DNA from: Verrucomicrobiota bacterium
GTDB lineage: Bacteria > Verrucomicrobiota > Verrucomicrobiia > Opitutales > UBA2995
DNA length: 64,000 bases
Direction: 5' to 3'
Assembly (NCBI GenBank): GCA_027622555.1
Contig: JAQBYJ010000009.1
Coordinates: forward strand, 1-64,000
The position numbers and the translations under genes were made by a program. Positions within the stretch are counted from its first letter, which is position 1, and every line of letters begins with the position of its first letter. The notes below the pieces were generated by a model that was given only the letters and a program-made list of their open reading frames with translations, was not told the DNA's origin and ran no database searches. Shown piece after piece: positions 959 through 54,621 of the stretch.

Positions 959-1585
959 TCAATATAACGACTGACCTGCGAGGCTAAGTGATATTTCAAT
1001 TTCTTCAGCGACTTTCTCTGTAATATCTTCTGTGCCTATTCCAAAATCTGAGCGGAAAATTGAAAACTTGGTGCGAATAACAAGTAGATCCCCATCCGGG
1101 CCTCGGGGACCCATGCGTGCTTTCAATTTACCTTTTAAATAGGTCAGGGTTGCATTGGCAGTGATTTGTCTGGTGACTCCTTTGACTGTAAGCTCACCGA
1201 CAATTTCTGCAGACGTAATATTTCCTGTTGTTTCTACATTTTGTAGGCTCGCTACTTTAAATTGGATGTCTGGATGATTTTTTACATCCATCCATTGATT
1301 TCCCAGCATGTGGCCATTCATGGTTGGGTTTGCCACGTGTAGCGAATTTGTATCAAGCTCAATGGTGCCAGTTGTTTTACCGGGGGCGCGTGGATCGAAT
1401 TGCACGCGGCCTGACACGCCCTTGCCGTTGCCGTTTATGGATTCGAGCGGAGCATCCATATTAAAGTTGATCGTGTTGACCCCCTTTGGATCGGCGAAAT
1501 CAAAGGATAGGGTTTCTGCGGATAAGCTAACTATTCCTGGAGTAACTAATATAAAAAGAAAAAGTACCTTCATGGTAATTGTCAT
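959..1585 (-). CDS. YceI-family periplasmic lipid-binding-like protein
   Basis: This 208-residue protein has an N-terminal signal peptide (hydrophobic residues 6-20, likely cut after LSA). The body is the YceI lipocalin-like barrel: repeated beta strands with the family pattern GHMLGNQWMDVKNHPDIQF and GELTVKGVTR. YceI proteins bind isoprenoid-type lipids in the periplasm; the ligand here is unknown. The start at 1585 is supported by a 4-nt ATGA overlap with the upstream membrane-protein gene, so the two are translationally coupled. A second ATG four codons later (1573) would give the same mature protein. Confidence 0.88.
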   Translation of the reverse strand: MTITMKVLFLFILVTPGIVSLSAETLSFDFADPKGVNTINFNMDAPLESINGNGKGVSGRVQFDPRAPGKTTGTIELDTNSLHVANPTMNGHMLGNQWMDVKNHPDIQFKVASLQNVETTGNITSAEIVGELTVKGVTRQITANATLTYLKGKLKARMGPRGPDGDLLVIRTKFSIFRSDFGIGTEDITEKVAEEIEISLSLAGQSLY

Positions 1586-1842
1586 GGATTTGAGTTAACT
1601 ATTTTTGAAATTAGAAACGAACCAAGGAAAAATGATCCAGCCAAAACGCCGGCAACCAGTAAGGGCTCGATTCCGGGTAAAAACTTGGGATGCCATACTC
1701 CGCCTTCTATTTCGGCAATCGGGTCAAAAACTGAAATATATTCTTTAGTTACAAAGAACCCAACTTTTGCTCCTCCGATGAGCCACATAAAAACGCCAGC
1801 CATTGCTAAAAGCAGTGCTGTTCTTTGCATTATGTCTCTCAT
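1582..1842 (-). CDS. Small two-helix membrane protein
   Basis: An 86-residue protein with two hydrophobic segments (about residues 7-28 and 58-80) joined by a short loop containing acidic and Pro residues. I do not recognise the family. It overlaps the following YceI gene by 4 nt (ATGA) and is therefore almost certainly real and expressed with it. YceI genes often sit next to membrane cytochrome b561 genes. This protein is far too short for that and has no paired heme His, so a cytochrome role is not supported. Confidence 0.65.
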   Translation of the reverse strand: MRDIMQRTALLLAMAGVFMWLIGGAKVGFFVTKEYISVFDPIAEIEGGVWHPKFLPGIEPLLVAGVLAGSFFLGSFLISKIVNSNP

Positions 1843-1934
1843 GGATATAAAATAAACCGTACCTTGAGCGTGGATATTTAAAGGTCAACGAGTTTGCCCT
1901 TGGCCTGGTTACTGTTTTTGCTCATTTAGAACTT

Positions 1935-2312
1935 ATGATTAAATTCCTTCACACCCGAATTCGTGTCAGCAATCTAGATAAGACCATTAGCTGGTACTGT
2001 GATAACCTCGGCTTTGTCTGCACCAAGCGTACCGACAAGTCTCCTGCGGGCAACCAGCTCGCTTTCCTTGAATTGGAAGGGAATGAGCACTTTTTGGAAT
2101 TATGTTATTCGCCTGATTATGAGGTGAAGGTTCCTGAAGATTTGATGCATACCTGTATCGGCGTGGATGACATCATTAGTTTTTGCGATGAACTTGAAAA
2201 GAAAGGTCAGGATGTGTGGCCGGAAAACTGGAGGGAAATTTTTCCTGAAGGTAAGAAGATGGCCTTCCTGACGGATCCTGACGGTTACGAGGTTGAGATT
2301 CTCGAAACCTAA
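1935..2312 (+). CDS. gloA: Glyoxalase I-type VOC protein (lactoylglutathione lyase)
   Basis: A 125-residue vicinal-oxygen-chelate protein. The opening LHTRIRV, DPDGYEVEI near the C-terminus, and the metal ligands H6, E55, H72 and E121 line up with H5/E56/H74/E122 of E. coli GloA, so metal-dependent glyoxalase I activity (isomerising the methylglyoxal-glutathione hemithioacetal) is the simplest call. It is a single-domain enzyme of normal length, monocistronic, ending just before a strong hairpin. Substrate thiol is not determined by sequence; another VOC isomerase remains possible. Confidence 0.78.
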   Translation: MIKFLHTRIRVSNLDKTISWYCDNLGFVCTKRTDKSPAGNQLAFLELEGNEHFLELCYSPDYEVKVPEDLMHTCIGVDDIISFCDELEKKGQDVWPENWREIFPEGKKMAFLTDPDGYEVEILET

Positions 2313-2321
2313 CCCTTATTT

Positions 2322-2359
2322 AACTAAAACGACCGCTCTTCCAAGCGGCCGTTTTAGTT
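2322..2359. terminator. Bidirectional terminator, gloA / sucCD
   Basis: Two 16-nt arms (2322-2337 and 2344-2359) around a 6-nt loop, starting AACTAAAAC and ending GTTTTAGTT. One A/C mismatch on the plus strand is a G-U pair on the minus strand. It lies between two convergent genes and should serve both. Confidence 0.88.
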
Positions 2360-2382
2360 AAAAGTTTTATGTGAACCACTGA

Positions 2383-3258
2383 TTATGGATGGTAAATACG
2401 CAGTAGTGCGTCCGCCATTTCTGAAGGTGTTTCAGCCACTTCGATTCCTGCGGCTTTCAAGGCTGCGATTTTACCTTCGGCGCTTCCACTGTTTCCTGAG
2501 ACTATAGCACCCGCGTGACCCATGCGGCGTCCGGGAGGAGCTGTTGTTCCCGCAATAAATGCGGCAACCGGTTTTTTAACATGCTCTTTTATGTACGAGG
2601 CAGCTTCTTCTTCGGCCGATCCACCGATCTCGCCAATCATGATGATCGCGTCTGTATCAGGGTCGTCATTGAACAGTTTCAAAGCGTCGGTGTGACTTGT
2701 TCCGTTGATTGGGTCGCCCCCAATGCCGATGCAGGTAGATTGACCATGACCACGAACGGTGAGTTGCCATACGGCTTCATAGGTCAATGTTCCCGAGCGT
2801 GAGATAACTCCGACTCGACCGGGTTTGTGGATATAACCTGGCATGATGCCAATACGGCACTGATCCGGGGTAATGATGCCGGGGCAATTGGGACCTATCA
2901 GGCGGCAATTGCTGTTTTTAAGAGCAGCTTTTACTTCGGCCATATCACGGACGGGAACTCCTTCGGTAATAGCGACGATGAGTGGAATCTCTGCATCAAT
3001 CGCCTCAAGAATGGAATCTGCAGCAAAGGGTGGTGGCACGAAAATCGCAGTGGCATTGATGCCCTCATTTTCAACCGCCTCTTTAACCGTGTTAAATATC
3101 GGTACCTGATTTTCCCAGATCATACCTCCTTTGCCAGGAGTAACACCTGCGGCGACTGTGGTTCCGTATTCGAGAGAAAGTTTGGCATGAAAACCACCGA
3201 ACTTTCCGGTTATTCCTTGGATAAGAAGGCGTGTGTTTTTGTCGACTAGAACACTCAT
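2383..3258 (-). CDS. sucD: Succinyl-CoA synthetase alpha subunit
   Basis: 291 residues, the usual length. The N-terminal CoA-binding Rossmann domain begins with [11 protein letters not shown]. The phosphohistidine is H248 in GHAGAIVSG near the C-terminus, followed by GSAEGK. With SucC it interconverts succinyl-CoA and succinate with ATP or GTP formation in the TCA cycle. It follows sucC by 2 nt in the same transcript and is followed by a strong terminator. No 2-oxoglutarate dehydrogenase genes are nearby. Confidence 0.97.
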
Positions 3259-3260
3259 AG

Positions 3261-4451
3261 TTAGGCTTCCTTAACTAAATTTACGATTTTCTCCGCTGCA
3301 TCAGTGAGGGAGTCTGCGGCTGTAAGGTCCAGGCCACTTTCGTCGAGCAGCTTTTTACCTAGCTCAACATTGGTGCCTTCGAGGCGAACTACTAAAGGAA
3401 CAGTGATATCCACATTCTTGGCAGCTTCAATAATTCCCTGTGCAATAATATCGCACTTCATGATACCTCCAAAAATATTGACCAAAATTCCTTTTACATT
3501 GGGATCGCTTAGAATGATCTTGAACGCTGCTGTTACTTGCTCAGCGGTAGCTCCTCCTCCCACATCGAGGAAATTAGCCGGATCACCTCCAAAGTGTTTG
3601 ATGATATCCATGGTAGCCATGGCTAAACCGGCTCCATTAACCAGGCAGGCAATATTTCCATCGAGAGCAATATAACTGAGGCTAAATTTCGATGCTTCGA
3701 TTTCTTTATCATCTTCTTCGTTTAAATCGCGAAGTGCCACAATGTCCGGATGACGGAAAAGCGCATTGTCATCAAAGCCTACCTTCGCATCGAGTGCTAT
3801 GACTCCACCTTCCTCTGTAAGAATGAGTGGATTTACTTCGACCATGGAAGCATCCTTTTCCCAGAAAAACTGGTAGAGACCGTTCAGCGTCTTGACCATA
3901 TCTTTGAACGCTTGGCCGGTAAATCCTAAGCCAAATGCAACCTGGCGCATTTGGAACGGCTGAATACCCAGTGTTGGGTCAACAAACACCTTTGTTATTT
4001 TCTCCGGTCTGTTTTCGGCGACCTCTTCAATGTCAACACCCCCTTCAGTGGAAGCGATGATGACTGGTTTGGAGGTTTCGCGATCCATTAAAATCGCCAG
4101 GTAATACTCATGGGCTATCGACTCCGCGCCTGTAAAAAATATGGTCTGAACTTTTCGTCCAGCTGGCCCTGTCTGGTGAGTGACCAAGGTGTTGCCCAGC
4201 ATTTTTGAGGCGACTTCTTTGGCCTCAGCGCGTGAACGGGTTAACTTGACTCCGCCTTGATATCCGTCTGTGAAAGTTCCTTTACCACGTCCCCCTGCAT
4301 GGATTTGAGATTTGACGACTATCATGCCGTCTTCAGGGAACTGATTTAATGCATCGTCAAACGCGTCTTCAGTTTGGACAGCCACGCCTGGTGAGACGGG
4401 TACTCCATAAGTGGCAAATAACTCCTTTGCCTGGTATTCGTGAATATTCAT
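3261..4451 (-). CDS. sucC: Succinyl-CoA synthetase beta subunit
   Basis: 396 residues. It opens with [17 protein letters not shown], the family start, followed by the ATP-grasp fold ([11 protein letters not shown]) and the C-terminal ligase domain with GGGA and NIFGGI motifs. It is the first gene of the sucCD pair. The subunit binds nucleotide and succinate and accepts phosphate from His of SucD. Nucleotide preference (ATP or GTP) cannot be read from what I see. Confidence 0.97.
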
Positions 4452-4483
4452 GAACGAGTGTTGCTAAGAAAACAAAGCCCAAA

Positions 4484-4512
4484 AATAAAACTGGAGAATT
4501 TATCAATAGCAA
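4484..4512 (-). promoter_or_regulatory. Possible sigma-70 promoter of sucCD
   Basis: On the minus strand TTGCTA (4512-4507), 17 nt, then TTTATT (4489-4484), each 4 of 6 to consensus, ending 32 nt before the sucC ATG. It is a weak match and its spacing is its best point. Confidence 0.3.
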
Positions 4513-4640
4513 GTGCTTATAGGAGGGTTGGATTTATTTAAGGGATGCTGAGTAAAATACTTCTAATTTGAAATGATGGATTGGCAGGAATTGGCTCCTT
4601 TTACCTTGAAGGCGGGTCGCACTTATTTGGTAATTTAAAC

Positions 4641-5342
4641 ATGCCCCGTCCTCGCTATAAGTTCATCCTTTTTGATTTGGATGACACGCTTTTGGATTTC
4701 AAAGCTTCTGAAACGCATGCTCTGAAAACCTGTTGGGAAACGTTTTTCAAAGATGCGATTTCCTTGGAGGTATACACCAGCACCTTTCACTTTATAAACA
4801 AAGGCGTTTGGCGCGAAGTGGAGTCCGGAAAACTAAAACCGTCTCATGTAAGTTATGAGCGCGCCCGTCGTACCTTGAAGCATGTAGGCTTGCCTGTTAG
4901 AAATGCTGATGAACTAGGAGCTCTATTTGCTTTTTGTCTCGGCCAGGTTGCCCAGTGGCTTCCAAATGCGGAGGATAGTTTTCGTAACATCGCTTCACGA
5001 TTCGATGTTGGGCTCATTACGAATGGTCTTACTGTAGTGCAATACCCTCGGGTCGATTCTATGGGAATTCGACCCGTGATAAAGGCATTCCAGATATCCG
5101 AAGAAGCGGGAACAATGAAACCCAAAGCGAAGTTGTTTGAGCGAGCATTAGCGGAAGCGGGTCATTCCAATGAAGATACTTTGATGGTTGGAGACTCTGT
5201 GTCCTCGGATTTTCAGGGAGCCCTCAACGCGAAAATGGATTTTTGCTGGGTAAAGCAGAATGCGCATCCATTGCCGTTAGGGTTTCCGAAACCAAGATTT
5301 CACGTTTCGAGTTTAAATGAACTCGATTCAATTTTGGCTTAG
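4641..5342 (+). CDS. HAD-family phosphatase, YjjG type (pyrimidine 5'-nucleotidase-like)
   Basis: 233 residues from the ATG at 4641. A TTG 20 codons upstream is open but would add a tail before the conserved FILFDLDDTLLDF motif I, so I prefer the ATG. Motif I gives nucleophile DxD, motif II is LITNG, the Lys motif is TMKPK, and MVGDSVSSDFQGA is motif IV. The helical cap following motif I resembles YjjG, which removes phosphate from non-canonical pyrimidine nucleotides. The real substrate is unproven. Its stop overlaps the stop of the convergent rhomboid gene by 4 nt. Confidence 0.85.
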   Translation: MPRPRYKFILFDLDDTLLDFKASETHALKTCWETFFKDAISLEVYTSTFHFINKGVWREVESGKLKPSHVSYERARRTLKHVGLPVRNADELGALFAFCLGQVAQWLPNAEDSFRNIASRFDVGLITNGLTVVQYPRVDSMGIRPVIKAFQISEEAGTMKPKAKLFERALAEAGHSNEDTLMVGDSVSSDFQGALNAKMDFCWVKQNAHPLPLGFPKPRFHVSSLNELDSILA

Positions 5343-6268
5343 CCGGTTAATGCAAAAATCCAGCATCCAATGATGATAATCCAAGTAGTGATTAAGAGAT
5401 TAAGTTGACCCGTTTTAGTTACGACTGCTTGCCAATTGAGTTTTGAGATTCCGCTGGCAAGCATAAGACCGAATATAAAACTCCACAAATGTGCGGCGAC
5501 GTCTGTTCGAGCGTCTCCGCTTCCGAGCCAAGCCAATAACATGACGCCTCCTGCTAAAGGGATTATCCATTGACGCTTTGTAATTTTTTCTCCGGTTCTA
5601 AAAAAGCTTCCTATTGGAAATCCCGTGACAAGGCCAAGTGCACCGAACACTGCGGTTGAAGCTCCCAATGAATAGAATGTAGAATCCAAGTGCAGGATGT
5701 TATTTGTTAGATTAGCCGAAACCGCGGTTGTCAGTATGCTGAGCCACCCCAAGCCATTGCCAAGATATCTGGCTGTAAGGTAACCGAACAAACCCATTCC
5801 AAATAGGTTGCCCATCAGGTGACCTACGTCCGCATGTAGAGTTACGGCTGTTACAATTCTCCACCATTCACGGTTTTCCCAGAAACCGGAGCTGCTGTTC
5901 ATTCCCAGATCATCTAGCTTCGCTATAGATCCCTGGAAGAAGAATACCACCACCAGCATCATTAAAAAAAGGTAGGAAGGGATGACGCTGATTTGTTTTT
6001 CCGACAGGCTAGGGGAGACAGCTGGCCAAAACCGATTCTTTAATCCAAAAATACGTACCTCGTAGGAGAGTCTTCGAGCTTCCTTCTCGGCGACCACTAG
6101 TGCAAATTGACCTGCGTAGGGATACACCCAATAAGCGCTTCCTGCTGCCAATACTGCCAACCCGGCTTCGTGAGCTTTTCGGATAGTTGGAAACAAAGCG
6201 ATAATAGATCTGTCGGCAGCAATCTTTAGAGAATCCTCACTTTCGGACTGAGAAAAGTCGTTTTGCAT
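5339..6268 (-). CDS. Rhomboid-family intramembrane serine protease
   Basis: 309 residues. The catalytic Ser is in GASTAVFG and the His is in the last-but-one helix (VAAHLWSF). The helix with HADVGHLMGN carries the oxyanion His/Asn. Six or so transmembrane segments span residues 100-309. Residues 1-95 form a soluble N-terminal domain that may be a DUF2007-like cytoplasmic domain, a weak call. It cleaves unknown membrane proteins. The start lies 32 nt inside the end of the upstream amidohydrolase gene, so the two are co-transcribed and possibly coupled. Confidence 0.88.
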   Translation of the reverse strand: MQNDFSQSESEDSLKIAADRSIIALFPTIRKAHEAGLAVLAAGSAYWVYPYAGQFALVVAEKEARRLSYEVRIFGLKNRFWPAVSPSLSEKQISVIPSYLFLMMLVVVFFFQGSIAKLDDLGMNSSSGFWENREWWRIVTAVTLHADVGHLMGNLFGMGLFGYLTARYLGNGLGWLSILTTAVSANLTNNILHLDSTFYSLGASTAVFGALGLVTGFPIGSFFRTGEKITKRQWIIPLAGGVMLLAWLGSGDARTDVAAHLWSFIFGLMLASGISKLNWQAVVTKTGQLNLLITTWIIIIGCWIFALTG

Positions 6269-51678: not shown

Positions 51679-52767
51679 ATGAAGTTGACGACCCACTTTT
51701 TAAATGTCTTGAGCAGATTCTTTAGTGTCAAGACCCATAAAGAACGATTGGTATTCGTCTGTTTGGTTTTTGGATTCTTTGTAAATCCATTGTCCGCTCA
51801 GCTAGATCCCATCTGGGAGTATTCGCTTAAGAATTTTGAACTAAGGACTTACAAAGAGGCAGTAGACGCTCTTTTCCTTGAATGGGAGAAAAATTCTGGC
51901 GGATCGATAGAGCCTGGCGAAAAAAATAAGGTTGGCTTAAAGGTATATACAGCATCTGGGCCAGGACTTGCTACCTCCAAGGATCTTGTCCGTGCTGTAA
52001 TTGGATCTCTGGTTGACCGTGGTTATTCACCAAGGGATATTTTTATTATAGATTATAATAAAGAGTGGCTTCGGGCCTGTGGATTTTTACCTCCTTTAAG
52101 TGAGAGAGGTGTTACGTTTTATGGTCATGAGGTAAAAATCATTAATTCAGGGGGCCTTTTCGACGAACTTTGGTACTACGACAGCCCTGTGCCTCCTCGG
52201 GAGTATTACTTACCTGGGATTACTCCAATGGTGCAGGGACTTGTTGAGGATGATCCTGATGCAGAATCCAAATTACCTGAGGATAGAAAAAGTTTTTTAC
52301 CAGCTCCATTGATCGAAGAGGTCGACTTTTGGATCAACCTTCCAGCCGTTAGCGATCATGAAGTGCTCGAGCTGAATGGAGCTTTGGTAAATGCAACCCT
52401 TTGGAACGCAACCAATACGCTTCGGTTTTTTCATTCTCCTTCCAACGCTCCTGTAGCCATTGCCGAAATGGCAGCGATTCCTGAATTTTTGGAAACGTGG
52501 GGTATGAACATTGTGAGCCTTGAAAAGTATCAGTTTATTGGCGGTCCTCAATTCAACAGCTTGTATACTGTTTCGGAAAAAATTTTAGTTATGAGTGCCG
52601 ACCCGGTTTCTATAGACGCTTACATGGTTTCAAAGATGAACTCTTGGCGTGAACGTTACGGATTTCCTCTTCTTTCGAAAGACATACCCATGCTTGTTTA
52701 TGCTGAACAACTTGGGGTTGGATCAGCCAGTCAGGATCCCAGAAGAATTGTTGTTTTAGGTGAATAA
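51679..52767 (+). CDS. Exported DUF362-like protein
   Basis: 362 residues. A signal peptide (hydrophobic about 24-38, cut after LSA) makes it extracytoplasmic. The body follows DUF362: VGLKVYTASGPGLATSKDLVRAVIGSL, the aspartate-bearing strand IFIIDYN, FWINLPAV, and ILVMSADPVSIDAYMVSKM. DUF362 proteins often have an Fe-S ferredoxin part; here the mature protein has one Cys only, so none. The function is unknown. The ATG is just 15 nt from the divergent TPR gene's ATG, so each promoter must lie within the other gene. Confidence 0.75.
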   Translation: MKLTTHFLNVLSRFFSVKTHKERLVFVCLVFGFFVNPLSAQLDPIWEYSLKNFELRTYKEAVDALFLEWEKNSGGSIEPGEKNKVGLKVYTASGPGLATSKDLVRAVIGSLVDRGYSPRDIFIIDYNKEWLRACGFLPPLSERGVTFYGHEVKIINSGGLFDELWYYDSPVPPREYYLPGITPMVQGLVEDDPDAESKLPEDRKSFLPAPLIEEVDFWINLPAVSDHEVLELNGALVNATLWNATNTLRFFHSPSNAPVAIAEMAAIPEFLETWGMNIVSLEKYQFIGGPQFNSLYTVSEKILVMSADPVSIDAYMVSKMNSWRERYGFPLLSKDIPMLVYAEQLGVGSASQDPRRIVVLGE

Positions 52768-52846: not shown

Positions 52847-53224
52847 ATGTCGCTTGAATCCTTTCTCCCCATATTAATCCAGGCAACACTTGCACTTGTA
52901 ATTGCCGTTTCTGTAATCGCTGCAAGTCATTTGTTTGGGCAAAGAATTCGGCAAAAGTCTGCGCTCAAGGGTACTCCTTATGAATGCGGAGTGCCTTCGG
53001 AAGGTTTGGCGCATACTCGGTTCTCCGTTAAATTTTATGTCACGGCAATGCTCTTCATACTATTTGATATTGAAATAGTTTTTCTCATTCCATGGGCGGT
53101 TGTTTATCGTGACTTCATTCACAATAGTATCCCTATTTTACTTCCCGTCTTGTTTTTCCTTGTGGTGCTCATTGTGGGCCTTTTTTACGAAATGAAAAAA
53201 GGTGCTCTTGAGTGGGAGAAGTAA
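52847..53224 (+). CDS. nuoA: NADH-quinone oxidoreductase subunit A
   Basis: 125 residues, three transmembrane helices. The family signature YECGVPSEGLAHTRFSVKFYVTAMLFILFDIE is complete in pieces (YECG, RFSVKFY, FDIE). It sits in the membrane arm of complex I. No nuoB-N follows: the next gene begins 44 nt later and is a signalling protein. The rest of complex I must lie elsewhere, or this is an extra copy. Confidence 0.95.
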   Translation: MSLESFLPILIQATLALVIAVSVIAASHLFGQRIRQKSALKGTPYECGVPSEGLAHTRFSVKFYVTAMLFILFDIEIVFLIPWAVVYRDFIHNSIPILLPVLFFLVVLIVGLFYEMKKGALEWEK

Positions 53225-53268: not shown

Positions 53269-54621
53269 ATGAAGCTTGAGCGTTATATTTCAGAAGATCG
53301 GATCCTGGATCTGAAAGGCCAGGACCTAAAAAGTGTTTTGGCCGAGCTTCTTGATGTCATCTGTGAGAAAAAATCCAAACTGAGTAAACGAAGCTTATTG
53401 AAGGAACTCCTAAATCGTGAGAATGCGATGACCACCTACTTGGGTCGGGGAGTTATACTGCCTCACATTCGCGTTAATATGAGGTCTCGGTTTGTTTTTG
53501 CTGTGGGTCGTTCCAGGAATGGTGTCGATTATGATGGGTATTCAGGGAAGGAAAAAGTGCAGTTGGTTTTCATATTACTGGCTAGCGAAAAAGAACGCAG
53601 TTATTTGCAGGTTCTATCCTCCATTGCGCGCGCTTTTCGAGATGACGCTTTCGTAGAAAAATTGATTTCTGCTCCAGACCATGAGACCTTTAAGGAGTTG
53701 CTGCTCGCTGGATTTTCCGGAGTGCAATCCCAACAAAGTTCGAGGCAGACAAAGCTTAACAAGTTGCTGTTTCGACACGCCGCTCGTCTAGCCAAAGGGA
53801 CAGGAGCCTCCACTATTTTGTTTTTTTCCGACACTATGATAGGTGGAGTTGAGGAGATTCCCGATTTTGGTGACACCCCTACCGTACTTATTTCTTCCAA
53901 ACTGTTAGATGCGCCGGTGTTGGCCCAAGGTAGGCCGACCCTTCATATTCAGGCATTCTCAAGTAAACGGTTTTCCCAACTTCGCAGCGCTGCTTTAATT
54001 GGATTAGGTCGAGGATTATTTAAATTCACCGATAAAATATGTTGTGTGGGAGGGATTGCTGACAGCAACCAGTTTGACAGTGTTGTCATCATCAATGTGC
54101 AGCAGGAGTTCCAATCCATTTTGTCTAATAAAGGGAACATTCTTCCTGGAAGTGTGAAGCCCGAGGTGATTGAAAGGGTAATTGCGATAGCCACAGAATT
54201 AACTGTTGAAGGCCGAGAAGGAAAAAATATCGGCGCTCTTTTTGTCATAGGAGATTCGGAAAAAGTGGAATCGTTTACCAAGCCTCTCGTATTAAATCCA
54301 TTCTTCGGATATAAACCTGAGGATCGGAATATCCTGAATCCTTTCATGGATGAAACCGTTAAAGAGTTTTCGAGTATTGACGGTGCATTTATTATAAAAG
54401 GTGACGGAGTTATTCTTTCCGCGGGTTCCCTCATTCACGTTCCCAATTATGAACATAAGCTTCCGTCTGGGCTAGGATCTAGGCATGCCGCGGCTTTTGC
54501 GATTTCTTTGGCAACTCAATGTGTATCGATAGTGATATCGTCAAGTTCGGGTCAGGTGACTCTTTTTAGAAACGGAGTTATGTTGCCATTGATTGAAAAA
54601 GGAATCTCCGGAGGATTTTAA
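53269..54621 (+). CDS. PTS EIIA-Ntr-like domain fused to CdaZ-like diadenylate cyclase
   Basis: 450 residues, no membrane segment. Residues 1-150 are a PTS EIIA type-2 domain: NRENAMTTYLGRGVILPHIR, with phospho-acceptor H66, is near the EIIA-Ntr signature. Residues about 160-285 match the pyruvate-kinase-C-like middle part of archaeal CdaZ-type proteins (ARLAKGTGASTILFFSD; RSAALIGLGRGLFK). Residues 295-445 are the DAC (DisA_N) domain: EGREGKNIGALFVIGD, LNPFFGY, DGA at 371-373 and RHAAA at 405-409 (usually RHRAA). It should make c-di-AMP from two ATP, perhaps controlled by phosphorylation of H66. It follows nuoA by 44 nt and precedes rpmG. Domain calls are firm; regulation is inferred. Confidence 0.88.
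   Translation: MKLERYISEDRILDLKGQDLKSVLAELLDVICEKKSKLSKRSLLKELLNRENAMTTYLGRGVILPHIRVNMRSRFVFAVGRSRNGVDYDGYSGKEKVQLVFILLASEKERSYLQVLSSIARAFRDDAFVEKLISAPDHETFKELLLAGFSGVQSQQSSRQTKLNKLLFRHAARLAKGTGASTILFFSDTMIGGVEEIPDFGDTPTVLISSKLLDAPVLAQGRPTLHIQAFSSKRFSQLRSAALIGLGRGLFKFTDKICCVGGIADSNQFDSVVIINVQQEFQSILSNKGNILPGSVKPEVIERVIAIATELTVEGREGKNIGALFVIGDSEKVESFTKPLVLNPFFGYKPEDRNILNPFMDETVKEFSSIDGAFIIKGDGVILSAGSLIHVPNYEHKLPSGLGSRHAAAFAISLATQCVSIVISSSSGQVTLFRNGVMLPLIEKGISGGF

Follow-up and report, generated by a model that had tools for sequence, protein, structure and literature searches.

The cyclase gene and its domains

The window, which is the whole stretch of 64,000 nucleotides that was analysed, contains on its forward strand a single ATG-to-stop frame of 450 aa (53269-54621), as seen in an ORF analysis, and the antisense strand of this interval is riddled with stops. 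Three domains lie in this frame, each exceeding its Pfam gathering score, a curated cut-off: PTS_EIIA_2, DacZ_P and DAC. The features of the locus are listed below, with residues numbered along the 450-aa chain.

52847..53224, + strand: nuoA (NADH-quinone oxidoreductase subunit A; Pfam Oxidored_q4, 2e-31)
53269..54621, + strand: EIIA-DacZ_P-DAC fusion, 450 aa, predicted diadenylate cyclase, most likely of the DacD type (Pfam, NCBIfam, homologues)
53302..53703, + strand: PTS_EIIA_2 domain, residues 12-145 (Pfam 1e-25, 90.8 bits against a cut-off of 27)
53464..53466, + strand: codon of H66, the predicted phospho-acceptor, in LPHIR (His in 50/55 diverse fusions)
53764..54111, + strand: DacZ_P or pyruvate-kinase-C-like (PK-C-like) domain, residues 166-281 (Pfam 2e-9, 37.8 bits against 27.4)
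54202..54579, + strand: DAC catalytic domain, residues 312-437 (Pfam 5e-21, 75 bits against 27)
54379..54387, + strand: DGA motif, D371 G372 A373 (D and G invariant, A in 54/55 fusions)
54481..54495, + strand: RHAAA motif, residues 405-409 (R405 and H406 invariant in 55 fusions)

The nuoA gene ends 44 nt upstream of the cyclase gene on the same strand; it lies away from nuoB and forms a pair with the cyclase gene. Upstream of nuoA lies a gene for a DUF362 protein (51679-52767), which recurs at many related loci. Rfam matches, including c-di-AMP riboswitches, are absent from the window, and promoters and terminators around the cyclase gene show no excess over shuffled sequence.

By profile score together with its DGA and RHxxA motifs, the chain is classified as a diadenylate cyclase (PF02457), and by profile score together with the phospho-acceptor His H66, it is also a PTS EIIA type 2 (PF00359). 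Its PK-C-like sensor domain lies N-terminal of the DAC domain, which is the layout of DacZ/CdaZ. The original prediction, which had proposed EIIA, PK-C-like and DAC domains in one unbroken frame, is thus confirmed by the Pfam search, and H66, DGA (371-373) and RHAAA (405-409) all lie where it had placed them. Neither of two NCBIfam equivalog cut-offs is reached by the chain. On the DAC side, the top model is archaeal DacZ (NF041371), at 113 bits against a cut-off of 430, while on the EIIA side, the PtsN model (TIGR01419) gives 50.4 bits against 138.7 and is exceeded by the fruA model (64.6 bits), both being far under their cut-offs. Archaeal DacZ/DacY (CdaZ) proteins share the order of a PK-C-like sensor domain followed by DAC, but as described, they lack the EIIA domain that is attached here.

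Remote homology and structure prediction agree with this assignment. A sequence search of the PDB leads from the N-terminus to PtsN/EIIA-Ntr structures and from the C-terminus to CdaA structures, and with a profile of 55 fusions, residues 153-263 match the C-terminal domain in solved structures of pyruvate kinase (E 6e-4). Because the fusion profile reaches this domain, in addition to the DacZ_P match in Pfam, the description of the middle domain as pyruvate-kinase-C-like was apt. An AlphaFold2 model computed from the alignment of the 55 fusions has a mean pLDDT of 86 and a pTM of 0.54, and hence its individual domains can be trusted, while their arrangement relative to one another is uncertain. 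The model superposes on EIIA-Ntr (1a6j) with a Z of 20.7 over 147 residues (rmsd 1.9) and on the DAC domains of CdaA and DisA with a Z of 14-16, and a whole-chain fold search returned EIIA and DAC domains. The fusion thus has the fold and the LPH-x-R phospho-acceptor site of EIIA-Ntr (PtsN), from which it differs in its attached cyclase, in a Tyr at the second active-site His, in its sub-cut-off score, and in that no other PTS gene is found in its window.

Distribution and class of the fusion

In a sample of the phylum (388 genomes), full-length homologues with 37-56% identity are found in most Opitutales genomes, and homologues with 45-56% identity over all 450 residues are seen across the order. 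Within the same sample, the other orders drawn from the class yielded no fusion homologues, and full-length relatives with 31-35% identity occur in a few further families of the phylum. Scanning one genome per species recovers at least 524 relatives, the best 80 of which come from Opitutia and Kiritimatiellae (Verrucomicrobiota), many Spirochaetota, Chitinivibrionales/Fibrobacter, Planctomycetota/Brocadiaceae, Hydrogenedentes, Wallbacteria, and one Deltaproteobacterium. The fusion is present in about seven phylum-level groups, at least six of them beyond the order's own. Chance or mis-assembly is ruled out by the domain scores and by full-length homologues across the order and in other phyla: since homologues align over all 450 residues across the order, the fusion is real and no assembly accident, and since these wide homologues are joined by catalytic Asp, Gly, Arg and His residues that are invariant in 55 fusions, the architecture is not a product of chance.

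A tree was built by a quick method, with an arbitrary root, from 128 sequences (123 fusions and five relatives that lack a matching EIIA domain or are cut short). In this tree, EIIA-less DacZ-like proteins of bacteria (L045, L044, L057 and L003) cluster separately from the fusions, as expected from a single origin of the fusion. L003 (1477-2370, - strand) is a second DacZ-like cyclase of the same genome, with the domain order DacZ_P-DAC and without EIIA, and its relative L057 is found in another genome of the order.

Braun et al. 2019 uses the classes DacA-DacE and DacV-DacZ, taking the DacD class after Corrigan and Gründling 2013, and gives five DacD representatives, all from Verrucomicrobia, of which four are Opitutales-type: Lacunisphaera, Coraliomargarita, Puniceicoccaceae and Opitutae (PMC6741144). 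Like DacD, the fusion occurs in Verrucomicrobia/Opitutales, where it is neither CdaA nor plain DacZ. Because the DacD representatives are Opitutales-type, nearly every Opitutales genome has the fusion, and the other DACs there are CdaA or DacZ-like, the fusion most likely is DacD, which we take to be the PTS-EIIA class of diadenylate cyclases; the assignment is by occurrence. The architecture had been put forward as novel, and this does not hold: it most likely is a catalogued but uncharacterised class, and one found in several phyla. In the literature searched, no functional study of DacD was found. What is new in this analysis is the property of being the sole EIIA, the conserved pair with nuoA, and the natural losses of H66.

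The PTS of the genome and the order

The messenger c-di-AMP is essential in many bacteria, and in other bacteria it controls K+ and osmolyte traffic. To our knowledge, what sets its level in gram-negative lineages is largely open. Whole-genome profile searches of the assembly (95.8% complete) find exactly one EIIA-2, inside the cyclase fusion, as well as one HPr (contig 29), EI genes on contigs 105 and 200, and one HPr kinase gene, and so the components of a phosphorelay are encoded. The earlier remark that no other PTS gene is nearby holds for the window, given the contigs on which HPr and EI lie. The active-site His of both EI and HPr stands in its canonical context, as read by eye. No PTS_EIIC permease was detected in the genome by a search that lay outside the glucitol, lactose and ascorbate EIIC types, nor was EIIA-man, by a search that lay outside the glucose, lactose and glucitol EIIA types.

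The nitrogen type that had been ascribed to this PTS is not borne out, as the secure EI is plain (583 aa, without GAF), HPr carries both His and Ser-46-type sites and coexists with an HPr kinase, and the contig with the other EI is doubtful. The features of this contig are as follows.

Contig 200 (L054), 1067-5641: gene for a CPA2 cation/proton antiporter that carries two TrkA_C domains and, 12 nt after it, the gene for GAF-EI (PtsP)

The contig is 5.9 kb long, and its genes have a GC3 of 0.50-0.57 versus 0.39-0.43 for the measured genes of the window, while its tetranucleotide match (0.87) is within the range of window pieces. No EI as long as the GAF-EI was found in the other genomes of the order that were searched. 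This locus is possibly a contaminant or a recent transfer, with contamination not established. A module of GAF-EI and TrkA_C antiporter as PTS-Ntr and c-di-AMP target was set aside due to the doubtful origin of the contig, and because of its short length, higher GC3, and the lack of a same-length EI in the order, we do not use contig 200 as evidence.

Across the order, 57 of 70 genomes have an EIIA-2, and 39 have exactly one. In 37 of these 39, the single EIIA-2 is the fusion (with one of the 37 cut by a contig end), the two exceptions being G102, with a stand-alone protein, and G395, with a contig-edge fragment. PTS_EIIC is absent from 44 of the 50 order genomes searched and EIIA-man from 55 of 56. 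Outside the order, 39 fusion-bearing genomes hold 2-12 EIIA domains each, and thus the exclusivity of the fusion as EIIA is local to the order.

Position 66 and the proposed control of the cyclase

The best reading of these data, to which we assign an even chance, is that HPr~P phosphorylates H66 and thereby sets how much c-di-AMP the enzyme makes. It retains the original proposal that the phospho-state of a PTS chain sets c-di-AMP, with EI, HPr and HPr kinase all present, and gives up the nitrogen type. The EIIA domain of the cyclase would stand at the end of a PTS that lacks a permease and would accept its phosphate, which passes from PEP to EI and HPr and from HPr~P to H66. The phospho-state of EIIA would then act through the PK-C-like domain to alter DAC activity, whether by activating or by inhibiting it, and HPr kinase would withdraw HPr from the chain by Ser-phosphorylation. 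Wired in this way, the cyclase would report the PEP/pyruvate balance (glycolytic flux) as c-di-AMP. We infer phosphorylation of H66 from homology and from the co-occurring EI/HPr chain, for which no other acceptor was detected in the genome. There are precedents for such logic, though not for an EIIA-DAC protein: in Caulobacter, (p)ppGpp is under the control of EIIA-Ntr~P, which binds SpoT (PMC4848567), and in E. coli, unphosphorylated PtsN binds and inhibits a K+/H+ antiporter (PMC11808508).

Several observations support the phospho-switch. All domains are above cut-off, the catalytic residues are invariant, and the fusion is the sole EIIA-2 in a genome with EI, HPr and HPr kinase. Further support comes from gene order: EI lies beside the fusion in one Pontiellaceae genome (L091), and in a reduced 1.0-Mb Opitutales genome (G428; L141, contig 43), where HPr is present and EI was not found, the HPr kinase gene lies directly downstream of the fusion on the same strand. 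Of 55 diverse fusions, 50 have His66 itself, as do 110 of the 123 fusion rows in the larger set, and P65, R50, E51 and G61 near it are also conserved. Finally, of the three genomes of family f4 in which the EIIA domain of the cyclase has decayed, two also encode a separate EIIA of the PtsN type, with LPHGR.

The same position also supplies evidence against this reading. While the cyclase motifs remain intact, H66 has been lost in at least four lineages (six changes by parsimony on the quick tree), where Tyr, Gln, Ser or Cys replaces it; the residue is thus not universal. G428 and each of the four members of family f10 that were sampled have Tyr66, and four of six Fibrobacterota fusions have Gln66. 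Three f4 genomes have Ser or Cys at this position, and their decayed EIIA domain scores 23.9 bits in one genome and is undetected in another. In family f4 (loci L049, L050, L051, L170 and L171), the EIIA site of the cyclase reads LPS.C or LACCR. In H66-less lineages, the EIIA domain would have to work without phosphate, if at all. Loss of EI as the cause of H66 loss was tested and is not seen: among genomes checked for both, there is no association, with 25 His and 7 non-His fusions where EI is present and 5 His and 1 non-His where it is absent, calls of absence that may partly reflect incomplete MAGs. The simplest claim of a phospho-switch therefore gains no support from that test. In addition, the second active-site His, which matters in EIIA-Ntr/Mtl, is a Tyr here (Y112); among the rows seen, most from Opitutales share this Tyr, and most from Spirochaetota have His. 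The H66 losses with intact cyclase, the lack of co-variation with EI, Y112, the plurality of EIIA domains outside the order, and the pTM of 0.54 together weaken the phospho-switch.

These losses would also fit an active c-di-AMP synthase in which EIIA serves for docking or as a structural module. Such an EIIA would need no phosphate on H66, would bind to HPr, to a transporter or to some other partner, and would retain H66 mostly by ancestry. Such a module would explain why DAC motifs stay intact through at least four independent losses, why all sampled f10 members lack H66 yet keep EI, HPr and HPr kinase (where tested), and why five genomes without detected EI retain H66 in the absence of any H66-EI link. 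It would also have a parallel in E. coli, where the antiporter-binding form of PtsN is the unphosphorylated one (PMC11808508). Nevertheless, His at this position in 110 of 123 fusion rows, spread over about seven phylum-level groups, is more than expected for a useless residue, and the residues around the site (P65, R50, E51 and G61) are conserved too. We consider this alternative rather unlikely, but it is the strongest that we weighed.

A second alternative concerns the catalytic domain, which could be degenerate, so that the protein senses c-di-AMP or ATP while CdaA makes the c-di-AMP of the genome. The genome has three DAC genes, encoding CdaA, the plain DacZ-like protein and the EIIA-DAC fusion, and thus has two cyclases besides the fusion; moreover, Ala takes the third place of RHRAA in the fusion. 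The original prediction had counted this Ala as the fourth residue, whereas it is the third (position 407), and had noted that it may affect activity. Among 55 diverse fusions, Ala is the majority residue at 407 (41), followed by Thr (6), Glu (3) and Arg (2). The same RHAAA is carried by the genome's own CdaA, which is the top DAC match (112 bits), has a DHH-family neighbour, and is unlike the fusion in having a transmembrane CdaA_N domain and neither EIIA nor PK-C domain. As the family norm, shared by CdaA, Ala at 407 is no mark of a dead enzyme. With D371, G372, R405 and H406 invariant in the alignment of the 55 fusions, the DAC part forming the best-conserved stretch of the chain, and the nearest characterised relatives, archaeal DacZ/CdaZ, being active (PMC6741144), degeneracy is improbable. 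The fusion is predicted, from its sequence, to encode an active, soluble c-di-AMP synthase. The remaining alternative, that the EIIA domain belongs to a sugar-transport PTS and the fusion merely couples uptake to c-di-AMP, has very little to commend it: EIIA type 2 does include fructose/mannitol uptake domains and fruA does outscore PtsN (both far below cut-off), but no match to PTS_EIIC, a family apart from the glucitol, lactose and ascorbate types, was found in this genome or in 44 of 50 genomes of the order.

Returning to the phospho-switch, the fusion, as the sole PTS receiver found in the genome, may turn the energy state of the cell into a second messenger. The regulatory input would be built into the enzyme itself, in a chain of four proteins (EI, HPr, HPr kinase and the cyclase). 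Among the 71 Opitutales loci whose sequence extends far enough upstream to be assessed, 67 have nuoA paired with the cyclase gene, with gaps of 8-228 nt. More tentatively, and with somewhat less than even confidence, we propose that in most of the order, a PTS of EI, HPr and HPr kinase without sugar permeases keeps a single output, the c-di-AMP synthase, such that the PEP-to-pyruvate relay is covalently wired to a K+/osmolyte messenger, possibly together with complex I via the nuoA pair. If true, the "orphan" PTS of Opitutales would have a function, and two global regulators, PTS and c-di-AMP, would be joined. The natural variants with Tyr, Gln, Ser or Cys in place of H66 are ready controls.

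Beyond the Opitutales, the surroundings of the fusion vary. Near it in Pontiellaceae (L075 and L091) are an EIIA-C4 zinc ribbon protein and an amino-acid permease with a C-terminal EIIA. At one planctomycete locus, the fusion is followed by genes for a CNNM/CBS protein and an Na+/H+ exchanger, which are plausible c-di-AMP targets at this single locus. Fibrobacterota fusions (L101 and L107) precede a phosphoglucose isomerase gene, and an acyltransferase gene precedes the fusion at L101 by Pfam and at related loci by clustering.
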